Assembly: GCA_016218585.1 (NCBI GenBank) | Contig: JACRDK010000002.1 | Location: forward strand, 1 to 32,008 | Direction of reading: 5' to 3' | DNA from: Candidatus Doudnabacteria bacterium | GTDB lineage: Bacteria; Patescibacteriota; Doudnabacteria; UBA920 | DNA: 32,008 nucleotides | In this document: positions 1 to 22,052 of the stretch, one piece after another | How positions within the stretch are numbered: position 1 is the first letter of the stretch | How the letters are laid out: every line of letters starts with the position of its first letter | Notes under the pieces: model-generated | What the model was told of the DNA's origin: nothing | Databases searched by the model: none | What the model saw: only the letters and a program-made list of their open reading frames with translations | Position numbers and translations under genes: made by a program

Positions 1-37
1 AATATTAAATTGAAAGTATTGTTTAATATTTTCAATT

Positions 38-523
38 ATGTTTTATAAAGGATTGGGGGTGAAAAAATTGCGAAATAAAAACAAAGCAGGTTTCACTTTA
101 ATTGAATTGTTGGTAGTTATCGCCATTATAGGTCTTTTGGCATCTGTGGTTTTACTTGCCCTAAACTCGGCTCGAGCCAAGTCCAGGGACGCCAAGAGGT
201 TGGCTGACATTAGACAGCTGGCTTCTGCTTACGAGCTTTACTTTAATGACGTTAACAGCTATCCGACAGTTGCAGCGGGTGCTATTCCAGCAGCAGGTGT
301 TGGAGCTCCAAACATTGTTCCTAGCTATATTGGTTTAATTCCGACTGCCCCTACTCCTCCAGATGGTTCTTGTACCGCAGCTCAGAACACCTATACATCT
401 ATTGCAAACAACCAGGGTTCTCCAAATTTGACGGGAACTTATGGTATCACTTTCTGTTTAGGTGCTCAGACCGGAGGCTACGGCCCTGGTTTCCACACTT
501 TGACTCAAGCTGGTATTCAATAG
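38..523 (+). CDS. type IV pilin / prepilin-type N-terminal cleavage/methylation protein
   Basis: GFTLIELLVVIAIIGLLASVVLLALNSARAKSRDAKR: class III prepilin signal, Glu5 and hydrophobic helix; start may instead be the GTG at 59. Confidence 0.92.
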   Translation: MFYKGLGVKKLRNKNKAGFTLIELLVVIAIIGLLASVVLLALNSARAKSRDAKRLADIRQLASAYELYFNDVNSYPTVAAGAIPAAGVGAPNIVPSYIGLIPTAPTPPDGSCTAAQNTYTSIANNQGSPNLTGTYGITFCLGAQTGGYGPGFHTLTQAGIQ

Positions 524-534
524 TATAACTTGCT

Positions 535-574
535 TTCTTGTCCCGCTAAATTTTGTAATTTAGCGGGACAAGAA
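535..574. repeat. 18-bp perfect inverted repeat (hairpin) just after the pilin stop codon
   Basis: ttcttgtcccgctaaatt-ttgt-aatttagcgggacaagaa; 4-nt loop, no immediate T-tract. Confidence 0.9.
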
Positions 575-592
575 TTGCAGTTTAAAATTTTT

Positions 593-985
593 ATGTTTAC
601 TATCAACCCGAAACTTAAACTATTGTTAGGCAGCCTAATTGTGGCTGCTGTTTTGTTATTGGCAGTCGTGTTAGGGCTTTCTGCTGGAAAAAATTTGGCG
701 CAGGCTGAAACAGTGGCCGCATCGGCGCAGTCCCTGGCAAAGGCTTTTGAATATTTTTATAATGACCAGGGAAGGTTTCCCACCGCAGTTGAATTTACAA
801 ACCAGAATGTTATGTTAAACTATTTAAGCGGTTACAACCTGCCCTCATTTACTTCTAAAATATGTTCCGACAGCCTCCAGTACAAAAAAGCTTTAAATGG
901 CGGTTATGTGCTGGATTTTTGCCTGCCAACAGCTGCTCGAAATTATGCTAAAGGCTGGAACAAGATTCAGTCAGGAGCGCAGTAA
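593..985 (+). CDS. hypothetical membrane-anchored pseudopilin-like protein
   Basis: ORF 530..985 in frame; the ATG at 593 (MFTINPKLKLLLG...) places the start downstream of the hairpin; N-terminal hydrophobic helix. Confidence 0.65.
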   Translation: MFTINPKLKLLLGSLIVAAVLLLAVVLGLSAGKNLAQAETVAASAQSLAKAFEYFYNDQGRFPTAVEFTNQNVMLNYLSGYNLPSFTSKICSDSLQYKKALNGGYVLDFCLPTAARNYAKGWNKIQSGAQ

Positions 986-1006
986 AACAACGAACGATAG
1001 CAATTT

Positions 1007-2989
1007 ATGTTTAAATTTTCAATTCCACGCTTACCCTATCGGGAGGATATAGTAGTTGGCTTAATTGGCTTTATTGTTTTTATTGTACCCCTGGCGTTCT
1101 CCATTTTTTCTCATGAGAATTTTGAAACAATAAAATTAGTTTTGTTTTGGCTGCTGCTGGGAGCGGCATCTTTTGTTTATTTAAACAGGCTCAGGCAGGC
1201 AAAAGCGCAAATCGGGTATAATAAGATAGTATATTTGCTTTTAGGGCTTTTTATTTTACTGGCAATTCTCTCAACGCTCGGATCAATTGATAAGCTTTTT
1301 AGTATTTTTGGTTTTTATTATCGTTTTACAAGCGGCCTGATTTTTTATTTGTCCTGGGCGCTTTTTTTATTTTTGCTTTTAGCGATTAATGAAAAAGAAA
1401 AACTAATTTATTTGCTGAAAATTTTGGTTTTTGGGGCGATGGTAATAGCGGTTTATGGTTTTTTCCAAAGTTTAGGCATTAATTTTTATATTCCCGGAGG
1501 AGCAGGCGGTTTTGCCCGGGCTCCCAGTTTGCTGGGAAATCCAAATTTTTCAATGATGTATGCAGCAGCGCTGCTGCCGTTTGCCCTGGCATTTATGGCT
1601 GAGAGCAAGTCTTTTGCCAGCAAAATTTATTATGCAGTAGGAATATTTTTTATTATTTTTACCAACGCAATTTTTTCCAGCAGAGGAGCGCTGTTGGCTA
1701 TCGCCTCGGGTTTGTTGGTGGGTTTATCCGTATTGATATTTTTTCACTTCCCAAAGAAACTTATATGGAAATTTCTTGCCGTAATATTTTTAGCAGGAAT
1801 ATTTAGTTTTGGCTTAGTATCGGTAAGCAGGCCGCAAGCGGTATCTTCTGTGGTGCAGTCGGCGGATGACAATACTTTTTTCCGGCTGGAAGCCTGGACG
1901 ACTTCCATTAATGGGATAAGAACAAGGCCATTTTTAGGAACGGGACCGGGAACTTTTGCGTTATTTTATGAAAGAAGCAGGACCCAGGGGTTGGGGAGCA
2001 TTGCCGGAGTGTTTGATGATGCCCATAATTTATTCTTGCAGATGGCGGTAACGGCAGGGTTGCCGTTTGTTTTAACTTTTATTTCCTTACTTATTTTAGC
2101 TGTTGTTTATGGCTTGAAAGAGCTGGTAGAAAAGCCTGATTTGCAAACCGCGGCGGCAATATCAGCCTTGGCGGCTTGGATTTTCGGGGTGTGTTTTAAT
2201 CCGGTGCCTATTCCGATGTTTTTATTGCTTGCGGTAATTTTGGCTTTTTTGTTTTATCCAAAACTAACTAAGATTAATCGTCCCAAAACATTATGGTTGT
2301 TTGCGCCGATTTATGCTTTAGCGGGAGTGTTAATTGTCTGCGGAACTGTATTGCTTGTGGCGGAACAAATTTTTTATTTTGCCGAGATGGGCTATATAAA
2401 CTTTAATTATAAGGAAACTTATAAACTAAGCCGCTTGGCCTATAAAGTTAACCCAACTAACCAAATAACTTATTTATATGAATTGGCTTCGGCAATCAGG
2501 ATTGGCAAAGACAGCGGCGAGATTGTGCAAGGCATAGAAAATTTAAAAAAAATCCATCCAAATTACACAACTAACTACGTCGAAGCCGGAAACTTATACG
2601 CCATGCTTTATGAGCGGACAAAAGAAAAACAATATTTGCAACATTCCGTTGAAAATATGGAACAGGCTTTAAAGATAGATCCGAATTACTCGGAGCGTTA
2701 CGGGCAATTAGCCTTGTATAATTTTCAGCTTGGAAATTTGCCCGCCGCAAAAGCTGCTATACAAAAATCGCTTGCCCTAAAACAAACCGATTTTTACGGC
2801 TGGCTGTTTATGGCAAAAGTTTATCAGCTGGAAAATCAGCGTTCTCCCTCTCTTGCCGCGCTGGATAAAGCCTATAAATTAAGGCCGGATATTGTCCAAT
2901 TGAGATATTTAATTGACGCTTTAAAACAGCTGCCGGATTTCCGGCAAATACCCATTCAAGTGTCAGTGCAGCGTCCGGATATAAATTAA
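1007..2989 (+). CDS. O-antigen ligase / Wzy_C-family polytopic membrane protein with C-terminal TPR-like region
   Basis: multiple TM segments, GTGPGTFALFYERSR...DDAHNLFLQMAVTAGLP ligase-like motif, C-terminal TPR-like repeats (NYSERYGQLALYNFQLGNLPAAKAAIQKSLAL). Confidence 0.82.
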   Translation: MFKFSIPRLPYREDIVVGLIGFIVFIVPLAFSIFSHENFETIKLVLFWLLLGAASFVYLNRLRQAKAQIGYNKIVYLLLGLFILLAILSTLGSIDKLFSIFGFYYRFTSGLIFYLSWALFLFLLLAINEKEKLIYLLKILVFGAMVIAVYGFFQSLGINFYIPGGAGGFARAPSLLGNPNFSMMYAAALLPFALAFMAESKSFASKIYYAVGIFFIIFTNAIFSSRGALLAIASGLLVGLSVLIFFHFPKKLIWKFLAVIFLAGIFSFGLVSVSRPQAVSSVVQSADDNTFFRLEAWTTSINGIRTRPFLGTGPGTFALFYERSRTQGLGSIAGVFDDAHNLFLQMAVTAGLPFVLTFISLLILAVVYGLKELVEKPDLQTAAAISALAAWIFGVCFNPVPIPMFLLLAVILAFLFYPKLTKINRPKTLWLFAPIYALAGVLIVCGTVLLVAEQIFYFAEMGYINFNYKETYKLSRLAYKVNPTNQITYLYELASAIRIGKDSGEIVQGIENLKKIHPNYTTNYVEAGNLYAMLYERTKEKQYLQHSVENMEQALKIDPNYSERYGQLALYNFQLGNLPAAKAAIQKSLALKQTDFYGWLFMAKVYQLENQRSPSLAALDKAYKLRPDIVQLRYLIDALKQLPDFRQIPIQVSVQRPDIN

Positions 2990-2994
2990 CTTTT

Positions 2995-3798
2995 ATGATT
3001 ACTTTTTTTTCTTTGGCGGCATTTATTTTTGGCAGCGCAATAGGCAGTTTTTTAAATGTTTTAACATTGCGATTGCCTGAGGAGGAGAGCCTCGGGGGCA
3101 GGTCTCATTGCCCTTCTTGCAAACATATCCTGTCATCTAGCGACCTGGTCCCGTTATTTAGTTTTTTGTGGCTTCGCGGTAAATGCAGATATTGTAAAAC
3201 TAAAATTTCCGCGCGTTATTTTATGGTTGAGCTGGCTACGGCCTTGCTGTTTGCTTGGGTTTATGCGGCACTGTTGCCGGAAAGCATTTTTGGCATCGTT
3301 ATTTTAATTAGGTACTGGTTTGTGGCCGCGGTTTTTGTATCGGTATTTGTGATTGATTTGGAGCATTTCGTTATACTGGATAAAATGGTTTTACTTTCAT
3401 CCATTGTGGTGGCTAGTATAAATATAATTTTATCGATTATAGCCGGAAGCAGTGTTTTTTCAATTAATGGATTGTTCATAAGCGGACTAGTTGGCGCAGT
3501 GGCTGGTTTTTTGCCATTTTATGCGTTATGGTTTGTTTCAAAAGGGAAGTGGCTTGGCTTTGGCGATGTGAAGTTTGCTTTGCTTTTGGGTTTGATTCTA
3601 GGCTGGCCGCAAATTTATGTAGGTTATTTTTTTGCAATTATGATCGGCGGCTTTGTTTCGTCAATATTGTTAATATTTACAAAAAAGAGCTTAAAAAGCA
3701 GGCTGCCTTTTGGAACTTTTTTGACTGTTGGCGCCTTTTTAGCCATGCTATACGGCCCGCTTTTTCTAAAATGGTATTTGGCTTTTTTGGGATTTTAA
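2995..3798 (+). CDS. pilD: prepilin peptidase (A24 family)
   Basis: GSFLNVLTLRLP, CPSC...CRYC cysteines, WLGFGDVKFALLLGL (GxGD-type aspartyl protease motif). Confidence 0.92.
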   Translation: MITFFSLAAFIFGSAIGSFLNVLTLRLPEEESLGGRSHCPSCKHILSSSDLVPLFSFLWLRGKCRYCKTKISARYFMVELATALLFAWVYAALLPESIFGIVILIRYWFVAAVFVSVFVIDLEHFVILDKMVLLSSIVVASINIILSIIAGSSVFSINGLFISGLVGAVAGFLPFYALWFVSKGKWLGFGDVKFALLLGLILGWPQIYVGYFFAIMIGGFVSSILLIFTKKSLKSRLPFGTFLTVGAFLAMLYGPLFLKWYLAFLGF

Positions 3799-3839
3799 GG
3801 CATAATAATTGTATAGCGATTGGCCCGGTTTCAATTAAA

Positions 3840-4565
3840 ATGAAACAAACACAAATGCCTAAATTTTCAACTAAAAAAAAGGGCTTTACCCTTATTGAAT
3901 TAATGGTTGTAATGTCCATTATGGTTATTTTGATTTCCGTAATGGTTATAAATTTAAACAGCCAAAAGGCCGCCAGAGATATTAAAATTGCCCAGAATCA
4001 GCTGGTGAGCGACTTAAGAAAAACAGCGGCCTATACACTGGCATCCAGAATAACGCCTTCCGGACAAACCGCACTTTATTATTTGGTTAAATTTGATTTA
4101 AACAATCCTACAAAATATTTTGTTCAGGCAATAACAAAAAATTCAAACAATTATCAGTTGGAGAATGTTGAAACTATTGGCCTGCCATCGGGAATAAGTA
4201 TTGCCAGTACCAGCGCCGCAAGCTATCCAATTGTTGTAAGTCAGCGCATTGCCAACCCGGCAACCCAGAATTTCCTTTCTACCGACTGCGGTCTGGTAGC
4301 TTTTGTGGCTCCTTTTGGTAAAACGATTGTTAATAAAGGATGCAATATTCCTGCTGCCCCGGCAGTGAGCATCTCCAATACCGCCGACGATTACGGCAAG
4401 ATTGTGAATTTTCAGACTAATGTTGCCTGCGACACAAACAGCAACCCCCCGTCATGTTCCGCCAGTACCGACTCGTTATTTACCATTACACTTAGGGATC
4501 AAAAAAATACAGTTTCTAAAACTGTAACCGTTAATGCGGTAACCGGAGCAATAATTTTTAATTAA
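3840..4565 (+). CDS. GspH/FimT-like pseudopilin
   Basis: KKGFTLIELMVVMSIMVILISVMVINLNSQ; internal ATG at 3840 of ORF 3528..4565 avoids overlap with the peptidase gene. Confidence 0.85.
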   Translation: MKQTQMPKFSTKKKGFTLIELMVVMSIMVILISVMVINLNSQKAARDIKIAQNQLVSDLRKTAAYTLASRITPSGQTALYYLVKFDLNNPTKYFVQAITKNSNNYQLENVETIGLPSGISIASTSAASYPIVVSQRIANPATQNFLSTDCGLVAFVAPFGKTIVNKGCNIPAAPAVSISNTADDYGKIVNFQTNVACDTNSNPPSCSASTDSLFTITLRDQKNTVSKTVTVNAVTGAIIFN

Positions 4566-5300
4566 ATGACATTTTTTCCTAAAATAAAATCTTTAAAATA
4601 TTCCGCCGGGCAGACTTTAATTGAAACTTTGGTCGCTTTGTTTATTTTGATAATGGGAGTGAGCGCGGCTGCCGGGCTGGCTGTTTATGCTTTAAGTTCT
4701 TCAACTGGCGTTATAAAGCAAATAGTCGCCAACGGGCTTGCTAGGGAAGGTATTGAGGCGGTAAGAAATATGCGCGACACTAATTGGCTAAAAGACACCC
4801 TATTAATAAATGGATGTTACGATTACACGACTTCAACCGCCAACAAAGCTAATTGTTATGCCAACTGGCTGAGTCGGGAGTATTGTTTGGATCCAACAAA
4901 AAATAATGGCGTTAATTGCAGCGGAGTTGGTTTGTCCACCGCAACATTTTTTCTCAGCTTTGATTCTTCTTTATTAAGTCCCTGGATATTCAACAAAGAC
5001 GGCAGTAAATTTGGTTTGAATTTTGATTCCGCTAACTCCGGCAATGGCGGTTATTATGGCGGCGGGTCTACCGGAGTTGACTGCACTAATGGCACCGGAC
5101 GCTCCGATTACTGCCGAAAAATTATTATTACCCAAGATGCAACAGCTCCTTTTAACCAGGATGTAGGCGCTTTGGTTAAGGTTCAGTCACAGGTTTGGTG
5201 GATAGACAAAAAGTGCCCGCGCGTTGTGGATTATAATTTGGCCCCGGCATCCTGTAAAATTGAATTAGACAGTTATTTAACGAACTGGAAAAATTATTAG
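4566..5300 (+). CDS. PilV-like pseudopilin
   Basis: SAGQTLIETLVALFILIMGVSAAAGLAVYAL prepilin-type N terminus; starts directly after the previous stop. Confidence 0.8.
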   Translation: MTFFPKIKSLKYSAGQTLIETLVALFILIMGVSAAAGLAVYALSSSTGVIKQIVANGLAREGIEAVRNMRDTNWLKDTLLINGCYDYTTSTANKANCYANWLSREYCLDPTKNNGVNCSGVGLSTATFFLSFDSSLLSPWIFNKDGSKFGLNFDSANSGNGGYYGGGSTGVDCTNGTGRSDYCRKIIITQDATAPFNQDVGALVKVQSQVWWIDKKCPRVVDYNLAPASCKIELDSYLTNWKNY

Positions 5301-5308
5301 ACAGAAGT

Positions 5309-6034
5309 ATGAATAAAGAATCAAAAATCAACGAAAATAAACAAAGCGGATTTACTTTAATGGAAATAACCGTTGCCACCAGCATTTTCGCCGTGGTGAT
5401 GGTTTCGCTGCTGTCTTTATTCAATTATGTTTTAAAAATAAATCGGGAATCGGAAGCCTTGCGCCAGGCTTCGCAGGGAATGCGAAATTTTGTGGAATAC
5501 CTTGTGAAAGAAATACGCAACGGCCAAATTGATTATTATGTGAACGGCGGTACTACTTTAAATAGCGCTTTTAGCGGAAGTTCTCCCTGCGTTCCGCCGG
5601 CGGGCGGCGTTGGAAGCAATACTTATGCTTTAAAAGAAAATAAGCTAGGAATAGTAAATACAGATAATATCCAAGAATGTTTTTATTTTGGTAAAAATGA
5701 CGGAAGCTACGTTGATACCATAGGGGCTAACCCAACAACCTTCTCTGCTCCAAGCAATCAAAATTATACTTTGGTTATGCAAAAAGCAGGGGTTCCAAAT
5801 GCCCAAATTTTAAACCCCAAGAACTTAAGGGTAGATAAATTAATGTTTGTAATCCGGCCGCTATGCGATCCGTTCACTCCTTCTTGTACCAGTTACGGAA
5901 ACAGTTACGCTAAAACCCAGCCGATGGTAACGATTCTAATAAAATTTACAGTCCAGCTCCCAACCGGGGAGCAGGTGCCGATTTATTATCAAACATCAGT
6001 ATCTTCAAATGAATATGACATACCAAACAATTAA
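5309..6034 (+). CDS. PilW-like pseudopilin
   Basis: QSGFTLMEITVATSIFAVVMVSLLSLFNYVLK prepilin-type N terminus. Confidence 0.82.
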   Translation: MNKESKINENKQSGFTLMEITVATSIFAVVMVSLLSLFNYVLKINRESEALRQASQGMRNFVEYLVKEIRNGQIDYYVNGGTTLNSAFSGSSPCVPPAGGVGSNTYALKENKLGIVNTDNIQECFYFGKNDGSYVDTIGANPTTFSAPSNQNYTLVMQKAGVPNAQILNPKNLRVDKLMFVIRPLCDPFTPSCTSYGNSYAKTQPMVTILIKFTVQLPTGEQVPIYYQTSVSSNEYDIPNN

Positions 6035-6833
6035 GAATTTACGGCAAGAAAACCAGCAGGGTGTAACCTTGTTGCTGGCGATTTTAGTTTTGTCCTCGAT
6101 AATGGCAATAAGCTTCAGTTTGGCCACAATTCTGTTTATTGAAGTAAGAAGCTCTAGCGACCTGTTAAAGTCGGAAAGTTCTCTTTATGGCGCTACTGCA
6201 ATTGGCGAAGAAGCGGTTTTTAGCATAAAAAGAGGCGTTTGTCCGACCAGCAACTTAAATTGTTTTACTTTCCCCAGCCAGTTTAATAATAGTACAGTAT
6301 TGCAAACCCAGCCGGTGTTTAGCTCAACCTCCACCCCGGTGATTCAAGATAAAATTCCCAAAGCAACCAGCTTTACCAGCACTACTAAAAAATACGATTT
6401 TTGCGGGGCCAATGTGTACAGCAGCGGCTGCGGTTATGGCAAGGTTACCATAACATTTAATGATATTGGCAACGGCGCTTCCGTTTACGCCTATTTATGC
6501 GAATTCGACGCCTCAGGAAATACCTCATACACAAGTTCTCCTTGTACGGAACAATATTATTCCGGATCTCCAAGCTACTGGTCTCACACTGCGCAGTTAA
6601 GCGCTTCGTCCAATTCAACAGTGTCTTGGGATTTAGACACGAATTCCCAACAAATGCTTATTTTATTTAATCCAAGCAGTACCGCAGATGCTTATGTTAG
6701 TATTACCACATACGCCAACGATAAAACAACGCTTAAAGGGTTGCCTTACTTAGGCCAGACAGCTGTAGATATAAATACCAGCAATGGCAACTTGGGCAGA
6801 AAAGTAAGGGTTGTGGTGCCAAACGGCCAGTAG
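6009..6833 (+). CDS. PilX-like pilus assembly/minor pilin protein
   Basis: QQGVTLLLAILVLSSIMAISFSLATILFIEVRSSSDL; overlaps the upstream CDS by 26 bp; last gene before a terminator. Confidence 0.65.
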   Translation: MNMTYQTIKNLRQENQQGVTLLLAILVLSSIMAISFSLATILFIEVRSSSDLLKSESSLYGATAIGEEAVFSIKRGVCPTSNLNCFTFPSQFNNSTVLQTQPVFSSTSTPVIQDKIPKATSFTSTTKKYDFCGANVYSSGCGYGKVTITFNDIGNGASVYAYLCEFDASGNTSYTSSPCTEQYYSGSPSYWSHTAQLSASSNSTVSWDLDTNSQQMLILFNPSSTADAYVSITTYANDKTTLKGLPYLGQTAVDINTSNGNLGRKVRVVVPNGQ

Positions 6834-7681: not shown

Positions 7682-9718
7682 ATGGATAAACAAGCCGCTA
7701 AAAACAGAATAGAAAAATTGGAGCAGCAAATTGAAGACCTGCGTTACCGTTATCATGTTCTAAATGACCCGAAAGTGACCGATGACGTTAAAGACTCTTT
7801 GGAAAAAGAGCTAAAAGCTTTGTATGCTAAGCATCCAGATTTGCAAACTTCAAGTTCTTCACTTTCCCGCATTGCCGGACAGCCGCTTGATAATTTCGTA
7901 AAAGCTCGCCATGAGATTAGAATGACCTCGCTTAATGATATATTTAGCAGGGAAGATTTGGTGGCTTGGGATAAGCGTAATCGTAAACTTTTGCCGCCTG
8001 ACGCAAAGTTAGATTATTTTTGCGAATTAAAACTGGACGGGTTGTCTGTGTCGTTAATTTATGAAAAAGGGATTTTTGTCCGAGGGGCTACCCGGGGCGA
8101 CGGTTTAATTGGCGAAGACGTTAGCCAAAATTTGCGAACTATCCAATCGATCCCGTTAAAGCTCCGCGCGCCGTTTCCGGATGTGTTAGAGGTAAGAGGT
8201 GAAGCAATAATGTCAAAAAAAGTTTTAAATGAACTTAACGCTCGTTATGAACGAGAAGGCAAGCCGCTTTTAGCAAATACCAGAAATGCCGCCGCCGGCA
8301 GCTTGCGCCAGCTTGACCCTAAGCTTACCGCCGAAAGGAATTTGGATTTTTTTGCTTGGGATATTGCGCAAATGTTTTTTGAATTTAGCGATGGAAAATT
8401 GGATATTGCAACGCGCCATTCCGATAAGCATAATTATTTGCGCAAATTAGGTTTTAAAGTAGACAGACATGAATCAATTTGTGCGGATTTGGAAGAGGTT
8501 TTAGCTTTTATTGATATGATTGAAAAGTTGCGTCCCGCATTTCCTTTCGGAACCGATGGCGTTGTCGTTTCAGTTAATCAACTGTCATTGCAAAAGCAAT
8601 TGGGTATAGTAGGCAAGGCCCCGCGCTATATGGCAGCTTTTAAATATCCGGCCGAGAAAGCCACCACTATAATTAAAGAAATTAAAGTAAATGTTGGGCG
8701 AACCGGCGTGCTTACTCCACTGGCTATATTTGAACCGACTCTGGTGGCCGGGAGCACAATTGGCAAGGCCACGCTTCATAATATGGATCAAATTGAGCGC
8801 CTGGATGTGCGGGTGGGCGATACGGTAGTTATTCAAAAGGCCGGCGATGTTATTCCGGAAGTGGTAGAAGTTTTGCCGAAGATGCGCAGCGGCAAAGAAA
8901 AAAAATTTAAAATGCCGGGGGTTTGTCCTGTTTGCAATCACGCGGTAGAAAAAAGGGAGGCCGGCTCAAAGAAAGAGGGAACGTCGGTGGCTTACTATTG
9001 CACCAATCCCAAGTGCCCGGCCAAGAACCGCAGATTTATGCAGCACTTTGTAAGCGTTTTGGAAATTTATGAAATTGGACCTAAAATTTTAGACCGTTTT
9101 CAGGAAGAAGGCTTAATTAGCGACGCTGCCGACATTTTTTCTCTCGAAGTAGAAGACATAAAAGATTTAGAAAGATTTGGCGAAAAGAGCGCGGACAATA
9201 TTATCGATTCAATAAACCAGCATCGCAGCGTATCTTTACCTAAGTTTATTTATTCCTTAGGGATTTTGCATGTGGGAGAACAGACGGCTGAAGATTTAGC
9301 TAAAGCTTTTGGGTCTTTAGAAAAAATAAAATCCGCTTCTTTAGAAGAAATTACCGCAATTGAGAATATCGGGCCAATAGTTTCAAAGAGCGTTTATGAA
9401 TATTTTAAAGACAAAGATAATTTAAAATTTGTTGAAAAGTTATTTAAAAACGGTGTGTCCGTCCCTCCCTACAAACTACAAACTACAAACTACAAACTTG
9501 CCAATAAAACTTTTGTTATCACTGGTTCCTTAGAAACTATGTCCCGGGATGAAGCGAGACAGAGAATTAGAGAATTAGGAGGCAAGACAACCGAAAGCGT
9601 TTCAAAACAAACTTCTTTTGTGGTTGTTGGCAGCGAGCCTGGATCGAAATATGAGAAGGCTAAAAAATTGAATATAAAAATTCTAAATGAAAATGAATTT
9701 TTGGACATTATTCACTAG
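7682..9718 (+). CDS. ligA: NAD+-dependent DNA ligase LigA
   Basis: CELKLDGLSVSLIYEKG adenylation motif (KxDG), EVRGEAIM, CPVC...CTNPKCPAKN Zn finger, HhH region and C-terminal BRCT. Confidence 0.97.
   Translation: MDKQAAKNRIEKLEQQIEDLRYRYHVLNDPKVTDDVKDSLEKELKALYAKHPDLQTSSSSLSRIAGQPLDNFVKARHEIRMTSLNDIFSREDLVAWDKRNRKLLPPDAKLDYFCELKLDGLSVSLIYEKGIFVRGATRGDGLIGEDVSQNLRTIQSIPLKLRAPFPDVLEVRGEAIMSKKVLNELNARYEREGKPLLANTRNAAAGSLRQLDPKLTAERNLDFFAWDIAQMFFEFSDGKLDIATRHSDKHNYLRKLGFKVDRHESICADLEEVLAFIDMIEKLRPAFPFGTDGVVVSVNQLSLQKQLGIVGKAPRYMAAFKYPAEKATTIIKEIKVNVGRTGVLTPLAIFEPTLVAGSTIGKATLHNMDQIERLDVRVGDTVVIQKAGDVIPEVVEVLPKMRSGKEKKFKMPGVCPVCNHAVEKREAGSKKEGTSVAYYCTNPKCPAKNRRFMQHFVSVLEIYEIGPKILDRFQEEGLISDAADIFSLEVEDIKDLERFGEKSADNIIDSINQHRSVSLPKFIYSLGILHVGEQTAEDLAKAFGSLEKIKSASLEEITAIENIGPIVSKSVYEYFKDKDNLKFVEKLFKNGVSVPPYKLQTTNYKLANKTFVITGSLETMSRDEARQRIRELGGKTTESVSKQTSFVVVGSEPGSKYEKAKKLNIKILNENEFLDIIH
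9469..9496. repeat. heptamer tandem repeat (CTACAAA)x4 inside ligA
   Basis: ctacaaa x4, encodes PYKLQTTNYKL before the BRCT domain. Confidence 0.95.
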
Positions 9719-10925: not shown

Positions 10926-12014
10926 ATGCATCTCACTAAATTAAAAAACTGGTACGGAAAATATGAACGGCCAATTTCTTCGCTATCGCTAATTGGCGGT
11001 TTTGTTTTTGACGCGGTTACCTTAAAGCGCGTAGATTTATTTTGGGAGAATGTCTGGGTAGTGGGACATTTAGTAATTGTTGGGGTCTGTATTATTTTGG
11101 TACATGCTTTGGAAAAAGGGGAAAATGATGAGGCTAACCCTTCCAAAGCGCACTTTTGGCTGGTTAACATTTTGCAGTTCTTTTTTGGAGGCATTCTTTC
11201 CACCTATTTGGTATTTTATTTTAGAAGTTCAGACATTACCGTTGCTTGGCCGTTTATGTTGATTTTGGCCGCATCCTTCGCGGCCAATGAAGTACTCAAA
11301 CGCCACTTTGTCCGCTTAACTTTTCAAATCTCCCAACTCTATCTGTCCGTATTTGCTTTCGCTGTTTTTATTGTGCCGGTTATATTACACAAAATTGGCG
11401 ATGGAATTTTTATCCTTTCCGGCGCAGTTTCTTTGGTGGTAATAGGTCTGTACTTATTAATCCTAAATTATTTTTCTAAAAATCCCATCAGCCGTAGCTG
11501 GAAAACTATTACCTTAAGCATCAGCGGCATTTTTATACTAATGAATGTTTTTTATTTTACTAAATTATTACCGCCTATTCCACTGTCTTTAAAAGATGCC
11601 GGGGTGTTTTATTCGATTGCCAGAAATACCCAAGGGGATTATGTTGCCATGGCAGAGCAAAAAAGTCTTTGGGAGTATTTTACCCTGTATCCGGACTTTC
11701 GCTATATTTCCGGACAGCCAGTTTATGTGTATACCGCAGTTTTTTCCCCGTCAGGCTTAAACACGGCCATTGCCCATCAATGGCAAAAAAAAGACGCATC
11801 GGGTAATTGGGCAACCGTAGATACAGTCGCTTTAAAAGTAGTTGGCGGGCGTGATGGCGGGTTTAGAACTTATTCACAAAAAACTTTTAGCTTAAGCCCG
11901 GGACATTGGCGGGTAAATGTAAAAAATACCCAAGGCCAAACAATAGGCCTGGTAAGATTTAATTTAATTTTAGCGGATGCTTTACCAAAAGTTATTGAGG
12001 AAATAAAAAAATAA
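10926..12014 (+). CDS. multi-TM protein with DUF2914-like C-terminal domain
   Basis: C-terminal HQWQKKDASGNWATVDTVALKVVGGRDGGFRTYSQKTFSLSPGHWRVNVKNTQGQTIGLVRFNL. Confidence 0.65.
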   Translation: MHLTKLKNWYGKYERPISSLSLIGGFVFDAVTLKRVDLFWENVWVVGHLVIVGVCIILVHALEKGENDEANPSKAHFWLVNILQFFFGGILSTYLVFYFRSSDITVAWPFMLILAASFAANEVLKRHFVRLTFQISQLYLSVFAFAVFIVPVILHKIGDGIFILSGAVSLVVIGLYLLILNYFSKNPISRSWKTITLSISGIFILMNVFYFTKLLPPIPLSLKDAGVFYSIARNTQGDYVAMAEQKSLWEYFTLYPDFRYISGQPVYVYTAVFSPSGLNTAIAHQWQKKDASGNWATVDTVALKVVGGRDGGFRTYSQKTFSLSPGHWRVNVKNTQGQTIGLVRFNLILADALPKVIEEIKK

Positions 12015-12027
12015 CAAATTTAAATTT

Positions 12028-12945
12028 ATGGAAATAAAAAAAACGCAAGACTTAGGTTTAGGCGACAAGGTAGTCCAACAAAATCGAACCAGGTTTTTAA
12101 ATCGTGACGGCAGTTTTAACGTTCATCGCAAGGGAAGTTTTGAGCGCGGAAACTTTAGTCCTTACCATGCCATTTTAAATATGACTTGGCCCCGTTTTTT
12201 AATTAGTGTATTGGGGTACTATTTGTCAATAAACTTATTTTTTACCTTTTGGTATTATATTACCGGCAGCGCTGCGTTTCCTGAATTGTCGGCATTATCG
12301 GCAGGACAGCGCTTCGGCCAGTTATTTTTTTACAGCATTCAGGTAATTACTACGCTTGGCTCCAGTCCATTGCATCCGGCCAGTACTATGTCTCACGTAG
12401 GTTTGGCAATAGAAGCGTTAGTTGGCTTGTTTGGTTTTGCCGTTGGCGCCAGCTTAATGTTTGCGCGCTTTTCTAATCCTTCTGTAAAAATTCTATTTAG
12501 CAAAAAGGCGGTAATCGCTCCATACGAAAATATGACGGGATTGATGGTTAGAATTATTAACGGCCGAAGTAATGAACTAATAGAGGTGAAGGCAACGGTA
12601 ACTTTGGCAATGCAAAATAAAGAGGGCCGGAGAACTTTTCAGCAGCTGCCGCTGGAGCGGGATATGGTTTTGGTGTTCCCTTTAAATTGGACTATAGTCC
12701 ACCCAATAGATAAAGACAGTCCGCTTTATGGCATGACAGCCAAAGACCTGGCCGATGCTCACGTTGAATTTTTAATCGGCATTACGGCCATTGATCAGGA
12801 TTTGTCCAAAACTATTTATACCAGAACTTCTTATCTATATAAAGAAGTTATGGTGGGCTATAAGTTTACATCTATAATAGAGAGTACTCAGGACGGCACA
12901 GTTGTGGTGGATCCGAAAAAAATTAGCAATATGGAAAAAGTTTAA
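12028..12945 (+). CDS. inward-rectifier-type (Kir/KirBac) channel homologue with non-canonical selectivity filter
   Basis: YSIQVITTLGSSPLHPASTMSHVGLAIEALVGLFGFAVGASLMFARFSNP plus cytoplasmic Kir domain (FPLNWTIVHPIDKDSPLYGMTAKDL). Confidence 0.88.
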   Translation: MEIKKTQDLGLGDKVVQQNRTRFLNRDGSFNVHRKGSFERGNFSPYHAILNMTWPRFLISVLGYYLSINLFFTFWYYITGSAAFPELSALSAGQRFGQLFFYSIQVITTLGSSPLHPASTMSHVGLAIEALVGLFGFAVGASLMFARFSNPSVKILFSKKAVIAPYENMTGLMVRIINGRSNELIEVKATVTLAMQNKEGRRTFQQLPLERDMVLVFPLNWTIVHPIDKDSPLYGMTAKDLADAHVEFLIGITAIDQDLSKTIYTRTSYLYKEVMVGYKFTSIIESTQDGTVVVDPKKISNMEKV

Positions 12946-14125: not shown

Positions 14126-14777
14126 TCATTTCATTTCGTTTACGAAATGAAAACTGAATTAAAATAAGTTAAGGGTATACGGTGGATGCCTAGGCAGTAT
14201 GAGCCGATGAAGGACGCGATAGCCGTGCGAAACGTCTCGGGGAGCTGGCAATAAGCTTTGATCCGGGAATGTCCGAATGGGGAAACCTACGTACTGGAAG
14301 AGTACGTGCCTATATGTCGTGGGATATATAGTGTGGGAACCATGCGAAGTGAAACATCTCAGTAGCATGTGGAAAATAAATCAATTGTCGCAAGACAAAC
14401 GAGATTCCGTCAGTAGTGGCGAGCGAAAGCGGAAGCATATAGAAATTTATTCATCACTTTAGTATAGTAGAAAGTGGTGAATAGATTATCTATTAGCCCA
14501 AACCATTTGAGTGTTGTTGAAGTCGCAAGACAGAGACTTAAAGTTTACAGACGTTGCTCAAGTGGTGTTATAAGTGGGAGTTATTGTGAGGCTGTAACCT
14601 CACTGGGAATATAGTGTGTTGTTTAGCAGAACACGCCTGGAACGGCGGACCAAAGAGGGTGATAGTCCCGTATCGCGAAAAACCATGCAATTTCCTAACT
14701 TTTTCTTGAGTACGACCAGACACGAGAAATCTGGTCGGAAATCAGGTCGACTAAGATCTAAGGCTAAATACTCATAT

Positions 14778-14818
<41 letters not shown>

Positions 14819-15463
14819 CACCCCGGAAGGGGAATGAAATAGTATCTGAAACCGTATACTTACAAGGAGTGGAAGACCTTATCCTTTTTTCGCAAGATTA
14901 AAGGATGGTTAACCGCGTGCCTATTGAAGAATGATCCAACGAGTTAATCTTATGTGGCTTACTTAAGTCTTACTAAAGACGAAAGTGCAGTGAAAGCGAG
15001 GATGAATAGTCCGTATTAGGATTTTGATTGGTTGATTACCTGTTTTAGGCTAATCAACCGCTACAATTTCCTAAATGTCACATGAGTTAGACCCGAAACC
15101 CGGTGAGCTACGCATGGCCAGGATGAACGTTATGTAAAAGTAACGGGAGGTCCGAACCCACTATTGCTGCAAAAATAGGGGATGAGTTGTGCGTAGGGGA
15201 GAAATTCCAATCGAACCGGGTGATAGCTGGTTCTCCTCGAAATAGCTTTAGGGCTAGCGTCGAGAGTTCCTTTGAGAGGTAAAGCACTGAATGGAAACCT
15301 GCTGCGCAAGCGGTAGGCTCCAACCAAACTCTGAATTCTCAAAGTCAAGATCTCGGCAGTCAGTCTGTGGGGGCTAAGCTCCACCAGACAAATGGAAAAG
15401 AATCCACACCACCGTCTAAGGCCCCCAAATCCTAGCTATAGTGCAAAGGATGTGGGATTGCCC

Positions 15464-15500
<37 letters not shown>

Positions 15501-17125
15501 TAAAGAAAGCGTAACAGCTCACTGGTCAAGCGATCCTGCGCCGACAATATATAGGGGCTAAGCTAGGTGCCGAAGACGTGGATTTACTACGATTTATCGT
15601 GGTAAGTGGTAGAGGAGTGTTGTGTACAGGTTGAAGCGGTATGCGTAAGCGGCCGTGGACAGTACACAAGTAAGAATGTTGGAATAAGTAATATATATAG
15701 AGGTGAGAATCCTCTTCGCCGAATATCCAAGGTTTCCAGGGCAACGATCGTCGTCCCTGGGTTAGTCGATCCTAAGAGTGGGCCCCAAGGGGTTCACCCG
15801 ATGGAAAATATGGTTGATATTCCATAACCGCCATACTATTATCTTAGGCGGGACGCATCATGATAACACTAGCGTAATCTGACTATTTGCGTTGTCATAC
15901 TTGTAGAATGAATTTCCAGGCAAATCCGGAAATTCTATGCGATTATTTACTACCTCGCAAGAGATGTAAATAAAAGTTGTAATTTCGAGAGTATGAAGAA
16001 ACCTGGCAACGGGAATTAGTGTGAATCAAGGTGTCAAGAAAAGCGTCGAAGTCATGTAGTATGGTGATCGTACCGTAAACCGACACAGGTGGATGGGGAG
16101 AGAATCCCAAGGCGTCCGGACCAATGTTCGTTAAGGAACTCGGCAAAATAGCAGGTGTACCTTAGGTATATACCTTGCCCCAATGAATAATTGGGGCCGC
16201 AGCGAAAGACCTCTCCCGACTGTTTACCAAAAACTTAGGTCCGTGCTAAAGCGCAAGCTGATGTATACGGGCTGATGCCTGGCCAGTGTCAGAAGGTTAA
16301 ACCCCTCGTCGCAAGATTGGGGGCCAAGCCCTGATGAACGCCGGCAGTAACTATAACTGTCCTATGGTAGCGAAATTCCTTGTCGCGTAAGTTGCGACCC
16401 GCACGAATGGCATAACGAGTAGAGGACTGTCTTAACGAACATTCCGATGAACTTACAGTGGCGGTAAAGATGCCGTCTACCCGCAGCAAGACGGAAAGAC
16501 CCTATGAAGCTTTACTATAGCGTGTCATTGAAATTAGTTTTTTGTTGCTCAGCATATGTGGGAGCCTTTGAGATTCGGTTTTCGGATCGAATGGAGGCGA
16601 AATGTGAGATACCACTCTGCAAGAGATTGATTTCTAACCAATACTTAACCTATATTGGGACAGTGGCTCGTGGGTAGTTTAACTGGGGCGGTTGCCTCCT
16701 AAATGGTAACGGAGGCGTTTATTAAGGTATGCTAGGCATGGATGGAAATCATGCTGATAGTGCAAACGCATAAGCATGCTTGACTGCAAGGGCGGCGACC
16801 CGCGCAGGCACGAAAGTGGAAGTTAGTGATCCGATGCGTTCGAGTGGAAGACGCAAAGCCCAACGGATAAAAGTTACTCTAGGGATAACAGGCTGATCCT
16901 CTCCAAGAGTCCACATCGACGAGAGGGTTTGGCACCTTAAACTAAATCGGGGTGCTATGAGAGTAATCTCATACTGTGTGTCTTCATCCGTCTGTCTCGA
17001 TAATATCGGGACGATAAATTTTGAAGAATAAATAAATTCGGCTTATAACGGAGAACCCGTAGTACTTATGTGGTCAAGTTAAATTGACTTAAGTAACCGG
17101 CAACACCGTGGGAAGTCGCAGTGAG

Positions 17126-17216
17126 TTTCAAGTTTTCAAGTTCCAAGTTAATCAAGTTACTGCAGATTGCAGCTAACTTGAAAAACTTTATGAACTTTAA
17201 AACTTTATGAACTTGT
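17126..17216. repeat. hairpin with roughly heptameric arms inside the intron
   Basis: ttcaagttttcaagttccaagttaatcaagtta...taacttgaaaaactttatgaactttaaaactttatgaactt. Confidence 0.75.
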
Positions 17217-17258
17217 TGTTGACCCCGTAACGACTGACCCGAAAGGGAAGGCTTAATT

Positions 17259-17343
17259 TAGTAGTTAGTAGCGAGTAGTTAGTAGCGAGTTCTGCAACGT
17301 GCAGTTTCTCACAACTAGTAACTCGCAGCTCACAACTAGTTAG
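17259..17343. repeat. second repeat hairpin inside the intron, 14-bp (2x7) units
   Basis: agtagttagtagcg x2 (17260-17273, 17274-17287), partial complement tagtaactcgcagctcacaactagtta. Confidence 0.85.
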
Positions 17344-17522
17344 GCAATACGCCGACTCCAGCCCTTTGTGACCTCTGGTCATAAAAGGTTTTTACGAAAA
17401 GTAAACTTAATGGCATGATTAAAAGTTTTAATCTAAACCAAAGAGCTGGAAGAAGATATAGTCTGCACCATACGAAATTATGGAATTATGTACGATGTCG
17501 GCTCATCACATCCTGGGGGTGA

Positions 17523-17559
<37 letters not shown>

Positions 17560-17843
17560 TGGTACGCGAGCTGGGTTCAAAACGTCGTGAGACAGTTTGG
17601 TCCTTATCTGCTGTGGGTGTTCGAAACTTGAGTAGTCGCATCTCTAGTACGAGAGGACCGAGATGCATAGACCTCTGGTGTACCCGTTGTCCTGTCAAGG
17701 GCATGGCGGGGTAGCTAGGTCTAGTTCAGATAAGCGCTGAAGGCATATAAGCGTGAAGCTGTCTACAAAACTAGGTTTCGTGTTTTTGTAGCAATACAAA
17801 AACTTTAGGTTCGGGGAAGACTACCCCGTAACAAATTAGGTGG

Positions 17844-17910
17844 TAGGGAGTAGGAAGTAGTTAGTAGTAGCAATACTACAAGCTACAACCTACAAGCTAC
17901 TAACTAATCT
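17844..17910. repeat. heptamer-repeat expansion hairpin in 23S, around helix 98
   Basis: 5' arm tagggag/taggaag/tagttag/tagtagc; 3' arm ctacaag/ctacaac/ctacaag/ctactaa/ctaatct. Confidence 0.85.
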
Positions 17911-17985
17911 ATAGGCTGCAGGTGTAAGCATAGTAATATGTTCAGCCGAGCAGTACTAATCAACCGAAAATTTTAATTCTATTTT

Positions 17986-18446: not shown

Positions 18447-21400
18447 ATGAATAAAAAATTGCTCTCGGCAGTTGGTTTGTTTGTGCTGGGTCTGACTTTA
18501 GTCGCCCAGCAGACAGTTGCCACCATAGCATACATTGATGCTAATGCGGTGGAATTTGGTGTCGGTTCCCATGTGCAAGGTAAAGTTTTAGGCGCTAGCA
18601 CTTCCGGCCTGGTTGGCTATTGGAAGTTAGATGAGGCATCGGCAAGTTCAGCCGCCGATTCGTCAGGCAGTAATTATAACGGCACCTTAGTAAACAATCC
18701 GACCTGGTCAGCGGGCAAAATTAATGGAGGCTTAAGTTTAAATCCCGGCACAACCAAAAACCAGTATGTTTCTTTGCCGAGTATTTCTTTGGGCAATTCC
18801 GAAGTAACAATTTCGGCTTGGGCGAATATTAGATCTTATTCAACGAATGTCCCTTTTATTTCTAAAGGAACCAACATTTATCGCAATGGCTCTGAATGGG
18901 GTCTTTGGATATATGGCGGTGGAAATTTAGAAGCCAGAAGGGGCGGGCAATATATTACCGCGCTGACAAAAGTAACCTTAAACTCTTGGCATAATTACGC
19001 AACCGTTATGTCAGCTTCCAGCACAACAGTTTATGTTGATGGAGTAAAAGTTTTTACCGGCGCAGGCTTGCCAACCACGGCAATTGGCGGAACAACAGGA
19101 ATTGGCGGCTGGGGCGGTACGGGAAATTTAGACGGAACTTTAGATGAAATTAGAGTTTACAATCGGGCGCTTTCCGCGACTGAAATTTTAGATATTTATA
19201 ACGACACCGGCAGCGGCCAGCCGCCGGTAGACACAACCGCTCCGGTTATTTCCGGAGTCACTTCTTCTTCAATAACCACGGCTTCGGCCGCAATTACTTG
19301 GAACACCGACGAAATAGCCGACGGGTTAGTTGAATATGGCGAAACAACAAGTTATGGCTCCAGCTCCGGGTTAGTTTCCAACTTAACTAGCTCCCACAAT
19401 ATTTCTTTAACCGGTTTAAATCCTTCCACTCAGTATCACTATCGGGTAAAATCCGCCGACGCCTCAGGAAACCAGGCTGTCTCAGGCGACAATACTTTTA
19501 CAACTTCAGCGGCTCAAATTATAGACACTCAAGCCCCGACTGTTCCAAGCGGTTTGGCGGTTAGCGGCGTTTCCTCCTCGTCTGTAAATTTTTCCTGGAA
19601 TGCCTCAACCGACAATGTCGGCGTGTTTGGGTATCGAGTTTATCGAAATGGTTCAATTGTTGGCACAACAACAGCTGCGTCTTTTACAGACTCCCAGCTG
19701 CAGCCTTCCACGGCATATGTTTACGAAGTTAGCGCTTACGATGCGGCGGGAAATTTTTCCGACCGGTCCGCCCAGTTGCAAGTAACCACTTCTGAGGCTT
19801 CCGGCGATTCCGTTGCTCCGAGCGTGCCAAAGCATTTGTATGCTTTTAGAACCACTGCTTCCAGCACAACATTAACCTGGGATAGTTCAACGGATAACGT
19901 CGGCGTTTCCGGTTATAATGTTTATCGATTCGGTTTAAAAATTGGCACTACCGTTACAACAAAATTTGTAGACACCGGATTGCTTTTTGGCAGAGGATAT
20001 TCTTATAGTGTTTCCGCGATTGACGCGGCCGGCAATGAATCGTCACAGTCATCTATAACCAATGTGGTGATGCCAATAAACAATTATGCTTCATTTAGAG
20101 GGGATAGCTTGTGTGCGCCGCCGGCAACAATAACCGCCAATGCCCAGAAAAATTTGAATGCGGTTAAGTTAAATTTGCCAAGTATGTTGGCAGACGCCGA
20201 CAATTATGACGCCCTAATTGCTCCATTTAGAAGCTCGGCCGATGTTAATGTAAAAGATTCGGTAAATATGGTTGACCTTGGTGTTAGATTATTGCGAACA
20301 ATTCCAATGGCTATAAATTGCACGCCTCAGGATTTTGATTATACTTTGAGCCTGTCCAGGCTGCAGTCAATCCAGCAGTCGTTGCCGTATTTTTATAACA
20401 AAGCCCAAAATAGCCAAGATCCTTATGCGGGAATGAAAAGGGGGACTGTTGCCGTAAGATCCGATATTGATGGCCATATTGATTATTATTATTTTGCTTT
20501 GCCAACAAACTATAACCCGGCGGTAAAATATCGCTTGCAGGTAATTTTGCACTTTGCTGGAACTTGTGCTTGGGAAGCCGCGGGCTTAAGCTCATTTAAA
20601 CCTTTAACAGGAGATCTTATAGTTGGGACCCCAAGCAGCGCGTCGGCATTGGCCAGCACCATTACCGACACAATTTATATTGTCCCATGCGGCAGGGGGG
20701 CCAGTTCTTCTTATGCCGTGTTGGCGCAAAAAACCATACTGGATGAAATTGCGGACGCAATGAGGCGCTATCCGATTGATTCAAATTATGTTTCCATTAG
20801 CGGTTCAAGCATGGGCACGACCGGAGGAGTAAATCTTTCCGCCCATTATCCAGATTTATTTGCCGGAATTTTAATGTTTACCGGCAGCCCGGACTTTAAT
20901 TTGCCGACCGGAGATTATCGTTACGACGGTTCAATGCTTTATCCGAGCGTTGGCAGCGTGAGCTATGGTATTTTAGATACTCCAGGCGACACATCTTCGT
21001 ATCAAAAGGAAGAAAATTTTGCTGCCAATTTGCAAAATCTTGGGACTGCTCACCCGGGTTACTATAAATACGTAAAATATACAGACCCCGCCGGCAGCCA
21101 TGGAATTATTAATCAAACAATGATTGACCAGGCGGAAAGTTTCTTAAAAACCGCAGTCAGGAATCCCTATCCTGCCAGAGTAGCTTACAATATGGGTTCC
21201 GAGCAGTATGATGGCGCTTATTGGGTGCACAATATGACCAGGAGCAATGTTTTGTCTCCGGGCAGCATAGAAGCGGAAAGTTCTTCTAACGGTTCCTTGG
21301 TTACCGTTGCCACAACCAATTTAAAAACTTTTAGTTTGGACTTGTCCGCCGGCAATCCGCTGTTTGCCGGTTTAAGCACTGTAGTTGTTTCTATAAATGG

Positions 21401-22052
21401 AACTGCCATTACAGTTCCCACTGGAAGCACGGCATATTTTACAACAGCTACCGGTTCTTGGACTTATTCCTCATCGCCTGACTTTGGATTGTACAAGAAA
21501 AAAGGCGTATCCGGTCCTATTGCCGATGTCTTTATGGATAAGCCGGTACTTATGGTTTACGGCAGTAAGCAGGGGAACAGCGCGGCTATGGGCAGCGTAT
21601 TAGCCGAACAATTAACGCAAGCTTATTTTGGAAGCTCAATTTCTCAAGATAGCTACATCCACTACGGCAAATTTGAAATTAAAGCGGATGTCGATGTAAC
21701 GCCTGATGATATACAAAATAAAAATTTAGTTTTATTTGGCACGCCAAATCAAAACTCTCTTGTTGCCAGCATGTCTGCTTCGTTGCCTTTCCAAATTTCT
21801 GATTCTGGGGTTCAAATCGGCGGCAAAGCTTACACCGGCGCAAAAATTGGCTGGTCTATTGTTTATCCTAATCCGTTAAATCCTTCCCGTTATGTTTTGT
21901 TCGCCTCGGAGAATTACAATATGGGCATTGTGGGTTTCTTAAACACCAATGTTTTGCAGAATGACTATGTAATTTTGCAAGGGTTGGACTCCGGATTTTA
22001 TACCAGGAAAGTTTTAACCCAAGGCTTATTTAATAGCCAGTGGCAAAAGTAA
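18447..22052 (+). CDS. large secreted protein: LamG/concanavalin-like, FN3-like repeats, alpha/beta-hydrolase (esterase/PHB-depolymerase-like) domain
   Basis: N-terminal signal helix; GLVGYWKLDEASASSAADSSGSNYNGTL (LamG); three FN3-like segments (DTTAPVISGVTSSS..., DTQAPTVPSGLAVSGV..., SVAPSVPKHLYAFRTT...); GSSMG nucleophile motif at 20802-20816. Confidence 0.85.
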   Translation: MNKKLLSAVGLFVLGLTLVAQQTVATIAYIDANAVEFGVGSHVQGKVLGASTSGLVGYWKLDEASASSAADSSGSNYNGTLVNNPTWSAGKINGGLSLNPGTTKNQYVSLPSISLGNSEVTISAWANIRSYSTNVPFISKGTNIYRNGSEWGLWIYGGGNLEARRGGQYITALTKVTLNSWHNYATVMSASSTTVYVDGVKVFTGAGLPTTAIGGTTGIGGWGGTGNLDGTLDEIRVYNRALSATEILDIYNDTGSGQPPVDTTAPVISGVTSSSITTASAAITWNTDEIADGLVEYGETTSYGSSSGLVSNLTSSHNISLTGLNPSTQYHYRVKSADASGNQAVSGDNTFTTSAAQIIDTQAPTVPSGLAVSGVSSSSVNFSWNASTDNVGVFGYRVYRNGSIVGTTTAASFTDSQLQPSTAYVYEVSAYDAAGNFSDRSAQLQVTTSEASGDSVAPSVPKHLYAFRTTASSTTLTWDSSTDNVGVSGYNVYRFGLKIGTTVTTKFVDTGLLFGRGYSYSVSAIDAAGNESSQSSITNVVMPINNYASFRGDSLCAPPATITANAQKNLNAVKLNLPSMLADADNYDALIAPFRSSADVNVKDSVNMVDLGVRLLRTIPMAINCTPQDFDYTLSLSRLQSIQQSLPYFYNKAQNSQDPYAGMKRGTVAVRSDIDGHIDYYYFALPTNYNPAVKYRLQVILHFAGTCAWEAAGLSSFKPLTGDLIVGTPSSASALASTITDTIYIVPCGRGASSSYAVLAQKTILDEIADAMRRYPIDSNYVSISGSSMGTTGGVNLSAHYPDLFAGILMFTGSPDFNLPTGDYRYDGSMLYPSVGSVSYGILDTPGDTSSYQKEENFAANLQNLGTAHPGYYKYVKYTDPAGSHGIINQTMIDQAESFLKTAVRNPYPARVAYNMGSEQYDGAYWVHNMTRSNVLSPGSIEAESSSNGSLVTVATTNLKTFSLDLSAGNPLFAGLSTVVVSINGTAITVPTGSTAYFTTATGSWTYSSSPDFGLYKKKGVSGPIADVFMDKPVLMVYGSKQGNSAAMGSVLAEQLTQAYFGSSISQDSYIHYGKFEIKADVDVTPDDIQNKNLVLFGTPNQNSLVASMSASLPFQISDSGVQIGGKAYTGAKIGWSIVYPNPLNPSRYVLFASENYNMGIVGFLNTNVLQNDYVILQGLDSGFYTRKVLTQGLFNSQWQK

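Follow-up and report, generated by a model that had tools for sequence, protein, structure and literature searches.

The window analysed here, a stretch of 32,008 nucleotides from a Candidatus Doudnabacteria genome, includes a gene for a Kir/KirBac-like channel subunit in which the K+ selectivity filter T-V/I-G-Y-G is replaced by T-L-G-S-S, followed by a proline (Table 1). The replacement is shared by orthologues from independent genomes and is most simply a derived change that seems to have arisen once, in one family of Candidatus Doudnabacteria. By analogy with other channels that have lost the tyrosine of the filter, we consider it somewhat probable that the protein forms a homotetrameric Kir-type channel that is weakly selective or non-selective for monovalent cations.

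A sequence-only reading of the window had described this gene as coding for a Kir homologue with TLGSS as its filter, and the ORF, the Pfam match, the alignment with KirBac3.1 and the structure model all agree with it. The ORF starts with ATG, and the codons ACG CTT GGC TCC AGT specify residues T109 to S113. KirBac3.1 from Magnetospirillum magnetotacticum was the top PDB match (phmmer, E 5e-49, residues 19-298), and in the pore the segment TTLGSSPLHP is aligned on ATIGYGKLIP with zero gaps. An AlphaFold2 monomer model without ions, which was built from 53 homologues and has a mean pLDDT of 88.6, places residues 109-119 in the loop that connects the pore helix with TM2. When this model was compared with solved structures using Foldseek the best matches were crystal structures of KirBac3.1 (E about 1e-29 to 1e-25, TM 0.70-0.83), which is therefore the best match in both sequence and fold across the whole protein. 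A PDB search with just the short pore segment retrieved ankyrins in addition to KirBac; the ankyrin hits were regarded as spurious and the search gave no further information. Since the gapless alignment and the structural placement coincide, TLGSS occupies the filter position and is not a misaligned stretch. The channel thus has the architecture of the Kir/KirBac superfamily, two transmembrane helices around a pore loop plus a C-terminal Kir beta-domain, but lacks the TxGY/FG filter of the K+-selective KirBac channels.

Table 1. Features of the channel gene and of its upstream neighbours in the window.
Feature	Coordinates	Strand	Basis or remark
ligA (NAD-dependent DNA ligase); synteny anchor, not a functional part	7682..9718	+	Upstream of the channel in 5/5 loci
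DUF2914 membrane protein; probably not part of the system	10926..12014	+	Pfam DUF2914 E 3e-14; neighbour in 2/5 channel loci
Kir/KirBac-like channel subunit, 305 aa, TLGSSP filter	12028..12945	+	Pfam, phmmer, AlphaFold2, Foldseek
TM1, aa 54-79	12187..12264	+	AlphaFold2 model helix
Pore helix, aa 92-108; carries the clade-specific F102Y and T106V	12301..12351	+	AlphaFold2 model, alignment
Selectivity filter T-L-G-S-S, aa 109-113, then P114	12352..12366	+	Translation, KirBac3.1 alignment, orthologues
TM2, aa 120-148	12385..12471	+	AlphaFold2 model helix
Cytoplasmic Kir domain IRK_C, aa 155-305, intact	12490..12942	+	Pfam PF17655 E 8e-26

Five distinct orthologues were identified including the query, all from independent genomes that belong to two genera of one Candidatus Doudnabacteria family, and the other four are 61-64% identical to the query. 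None of them carries GYG. The motif TLG[ST]SPLHP is found in all five, as TLGSSP in three and TLGTSP in two, with LHP always next. We collected 144 distinct homologues, the majority of them from Bacteroidota and Balneolota, and 137 carry GYG or GFG; the set is uneven, as it was partly chosen by similarity to the query. In the tree the five orthologues form a single branch (SH-aLRT 100) nested inside the GYG channels, so that the filter change is derived and, most simply, occurred a single time. The neighbours of this clade, L009, L095 and L096, are KirBac channels of Bacteroidota/Balneolota, all with TIGYG (44% identity for L009). The filter seems to derive from that of a GYG channel akin to the Bacteroidota and Balneolota ones, and the gene was likely acquired by transfer from a donor resembling these groups. 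A profile of 53 homologues run against a phylum sample of 380 genomes gave no full-length Kir match outside the family, the other matches in these genomes being short and confined to the pore, and no viral relatives were found in IMG/VR. Two KirBac homologues from Chitinophagaceae (L080 4686-5558 and L084 1283-2155) have the filter TV[AT]VD[FY] with a two-residue insertion; they are nested among GYG channels and represent a second, independent loss of GYG.

The filter codons differ synonymously among the orthologues, and pairwise dN/dS values within the clade were 0.06-0.15 where they could be computed, several pairs being saturated at synonymous sites. A local sequencing error or an isolated decaying gene, which might be considered in a window that derives from an assembled, multi-contig genome, is extremely improbable; it is ruled out by the five orthologues from independent genomes, the synonymous differences in the filter codons and dN/dS values well below 1.

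The changes that distinguish the clade are few. In the 137 GYG homologues, 43 positions show a conservation of at least 90%, and the clade departs from them at just seven: F102Y, T106V, V110L, Y112S/T, G113S, T141A and G142S. All seven are located in the pore helix, the filter or TM2, and the pore loop, which holds 10 of the 43 conserved positions, includes five of the seven altered ones (hypergeometric P 0.004). Counted from the filter without gaps, positions 102 and 106 are those of Trp68 and Thr72 of KcsA, two residues that form hydrogen bonds with the GYG tyrosine and whose replacement has been held responsible for the altered filter of HCN channels (PMC7682534). Thus, the same lineage in which the tyrosine was replaced has also changed at the two holding positions; KirBac3.1, with TIGYG, has F and T at the holding positions where the query has Y and V. 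The two TM2 changes, A141 and S142, are also present in KirBac3.1 and are uninformative about selectivity.

Within the clade 15 of the 17 positions of the stretch 102-118, which was picked after the alignment had been inspected, are invariant, compared with 47% over the whole protein (P 0.0004). Identity to the query is 77-85% in the pore, 60-64% in the cytoplasmic domain and 36-46% in TM1. Of all parts of the protein, the pore is thus the most constrained. This speaks against decay of the pore and, less strongly, against a protein that does not conduct. Loss of GYG often yields dead channels in mutagenesis, and the Kir domain is intact, so one could envisage a membrane sensor in which this domain reads lipid or pH while the pore is sealed. 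We regard such a sensor as unlikely: a dead pore would not need the best conserved loop of the protein, and no conserved partner gene accompanies the channel. The sequence-only reading had listed a non-selective pore, a channel for another ion and a non-conducting sensor as possible outcomes of the loss of GYG; the conservation of that loss across species favours its general proposal of an altered selectivity, and the constraint on the pore makes the third option less likely. For a true Kir homologue with a conserved loss of GYG, altered selectivity would be the natural reading.

Kir homologues that lack TxGYG are already known as the NirBac channels (Zubcevic et al. 2015, PMC4607889), of which NirBac1.1 and NirBac1.2 are non-selective for monovalent cations in liposome flux assays (PMC4607889). 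The Doudnabacteria channels share with them intact Kir transmembrane and cytoplasmic domains and a filter other than TxGYG, and judging from its conservation their filter is a real, conserved new example of this kind. The P-loop of NirBac1.1 and NirBac1.2 is wholly unrelated to known filters, whereas the clade retains a KirBac-like pore loop that, apart from the filter, aligns with KirBac3.1 without gaps, and the substitution is a specific one to S/T-S-P. In this respect it resembles, as compared by description, NirBac2.1 from Gemmatimonas, whose filter (TTGTD) is altered while its P-loop is conserved. The hosts also differ: NirBac channels are from Anaeromyxobacter or Gemmatimonas, and those described here are from a candidate-phylum bacterium.

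Two other precedents bear on the filter itself. In NaK, with the filter TVGDG, only the sites S3 and S4 are formed and the channel is non-selective (PMC8689586); in a CNG mimic built on NaK the residues ETPP follow T-V-G (PMC6091977). NaK and the clade retain T-x-G and replace the tyrosine, and the filters of the CNG mimic and of the clade fit one frame, T-x-G-x-[T/S]-P. The scaffolds differ, as CNG channels have six transmembrane helices and a cyclic-nucleotide-binding domain and NaK is a plain two-helix channel, neither with a Kir domain, while the channel in the window has two transmembrane helices and a Kir domain only. Moreover, the clade has S/T at the tyrosine position, where CNG has E and NaK has D; as an acidic residue is absent there, the analogy with NaK and CNG is partial.

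On the strength of NaK, the CNG mimic and NirBac1.1/1.2, a non-selective channel is the best reading, and the following mechanism can be proposed. Two-helix subunits, each with an intact cytoplasmic gating domain, would assemble into a homotetramer, with T-L-G-[S/T]-S and a following P in place of the original T-V/I-G-Y-G filter. The backbone of the two inner cation sites, S3 and S4, which presumably are occupied, would be retained through T, L and the first G. The loss of the tyrosine, of the two pore-helix positions that hold it and of the second glycine would eliminate the ordered outer sites S1 and S2, and the outer filter would become a wider, hydroxyl-lined vestibule. Na+ and K+ would then pass with little discrimination, as in the NaK and CNG filters, and gating would be exerted by the Kir cytoplasmic domain and probably also by membrane lipids.

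Loss of the standard motif is no proof of non-selectivity, since TbIRK, a Kir-like channel of the eukaryote Trypanosoma brucei that lacks it, still has a K+/Na+ preference of more than 7 (PMC5429665). The filter of TbIRK, GGYVG, is unlike that of the clade. A channel that still prefers K+, in which the T-L-G carbonyls and the Ser/Thr hydroxyls would provide an alternative set of K+ sites, is nonetheless a minor possibility that the retention of T109 and G111, as well as the TbIRK precedent, would support. Against it, none of the second glycine, the tyrosine and the two residues that hold the tyrosine has been retained, and NaK and CNG channels keep T-x-G, lose the tyrosine and are non-selective. 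Selectivity for a different ion, such as Na+, NH4+ or protons, the last through a ring formed by the conserved His116, is decidedly unlikely. The S/T-S-P-L-H-P exit motif is indeed kept in all five orthologues, but the same HP after the filter can occur in KirBac-type GYG channels (pattern GYGDMHP, as given in the sequence-only reading), there is no acidic ring of the kind seen in Na+ channels, and there are no contextual genes.

The gene order that is conserved in the family runs from ligA through optional genes to the channel and then to 23S rRNA, and in the window 23S and 5S rRNA genes lie downstream of the channel gene. The DUF2914 protein is located directly before the channel, as had been noticed from the sequence alone, and it had been suggested that it could be a partner. 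A DUF2914 gene is found between ligA and the channel solely in the window and in genome G019; in the other three channel loci (G011, G013 and G020) the channel directly follows ligA. Among 22 genomes of the family, DUF2914 is present in six, the channel in five and both in just two. This co-occurrence count led us to reject DUF2914 as an obligatory partner: it is a frequent neighbour at the locus and probably not a partner. Four genomes have DUF2914 and no channel; in two of them, G018 and G008, the DUF2914 gene lies at the end of its contig or close to it, and the absence of the channel is for this reason less certain.

Other features of these loci can be recorded. In G015 (L166 2885-3644) ligA, DUF2914 and the 23S rRNA gene are found in this order with no channel between them, an apparent clean loss of the channel gene. 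The 23S rRNA gene of the window (14157-17980, 3824 nt) has an insert of about 555 nt at 16938-17492 that is missing from the 23S rRNA gene of the sibling genome G015 (L166); the insert overlaps a sub-threshold Rfam match to a group I intron (16988-17484, E 0.0012) and is a probable group I intron. The product of nucleotides 18447-22052 is a surface-type protein of 1201 aa, whose domains comprise LamG, three of the fibronectin III type and one that is esterase/depolymerase-like. As judged from translations only, the region 1-6833 holds a series of genes for pseudopilin-like proteins that carry the methylation motifs of type IV pilins, together with one prepilin-peptidase-like gene.

The genome from which the window derives (G000) is 1.19 Mb long and about 98% complete. 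Searches of this genome for TrkH, Kup, KdpA and Ion_trans_2 (PF02386, PF02705, PF03814 and PF07885) gave no match, while control genomes did give matches to the same profiles. As far as these four families are concerned, the channel may provide this organism with an important route for cations. The same result can be counted in favour of a K+-preferring channel, as a path for K+ may be needed. We put forward as a tentative possibility that a CNG-like filter, T-x-G-[S/T]-S-P, arose independently on the Kir scaffold together with a coordinated rebuilding of the tyrosine-holding positions, and that the channel serves as the main path of cation leak or uptake in an ultra-small bacterium in which TrkH, Kup, Kdp or another Ion_trans_2 channel was not detected.

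The clade can be considered a natural experiment in undoing the K+ filter on an otherwise standard Kir scaffold. Its interest lies in a small, coordinated change after which the stretch 102-118 has remained almost invariant, and the change of seven positions is cleaner than that in NirBac1.1 and NirBac1.2, where the entire pore loop differs. It predicts a few residue swaps that are testable in KirBac3.1 and, with the standard K+ uptake families not found in G000, it bears on the handling of cations by minimal genomes.
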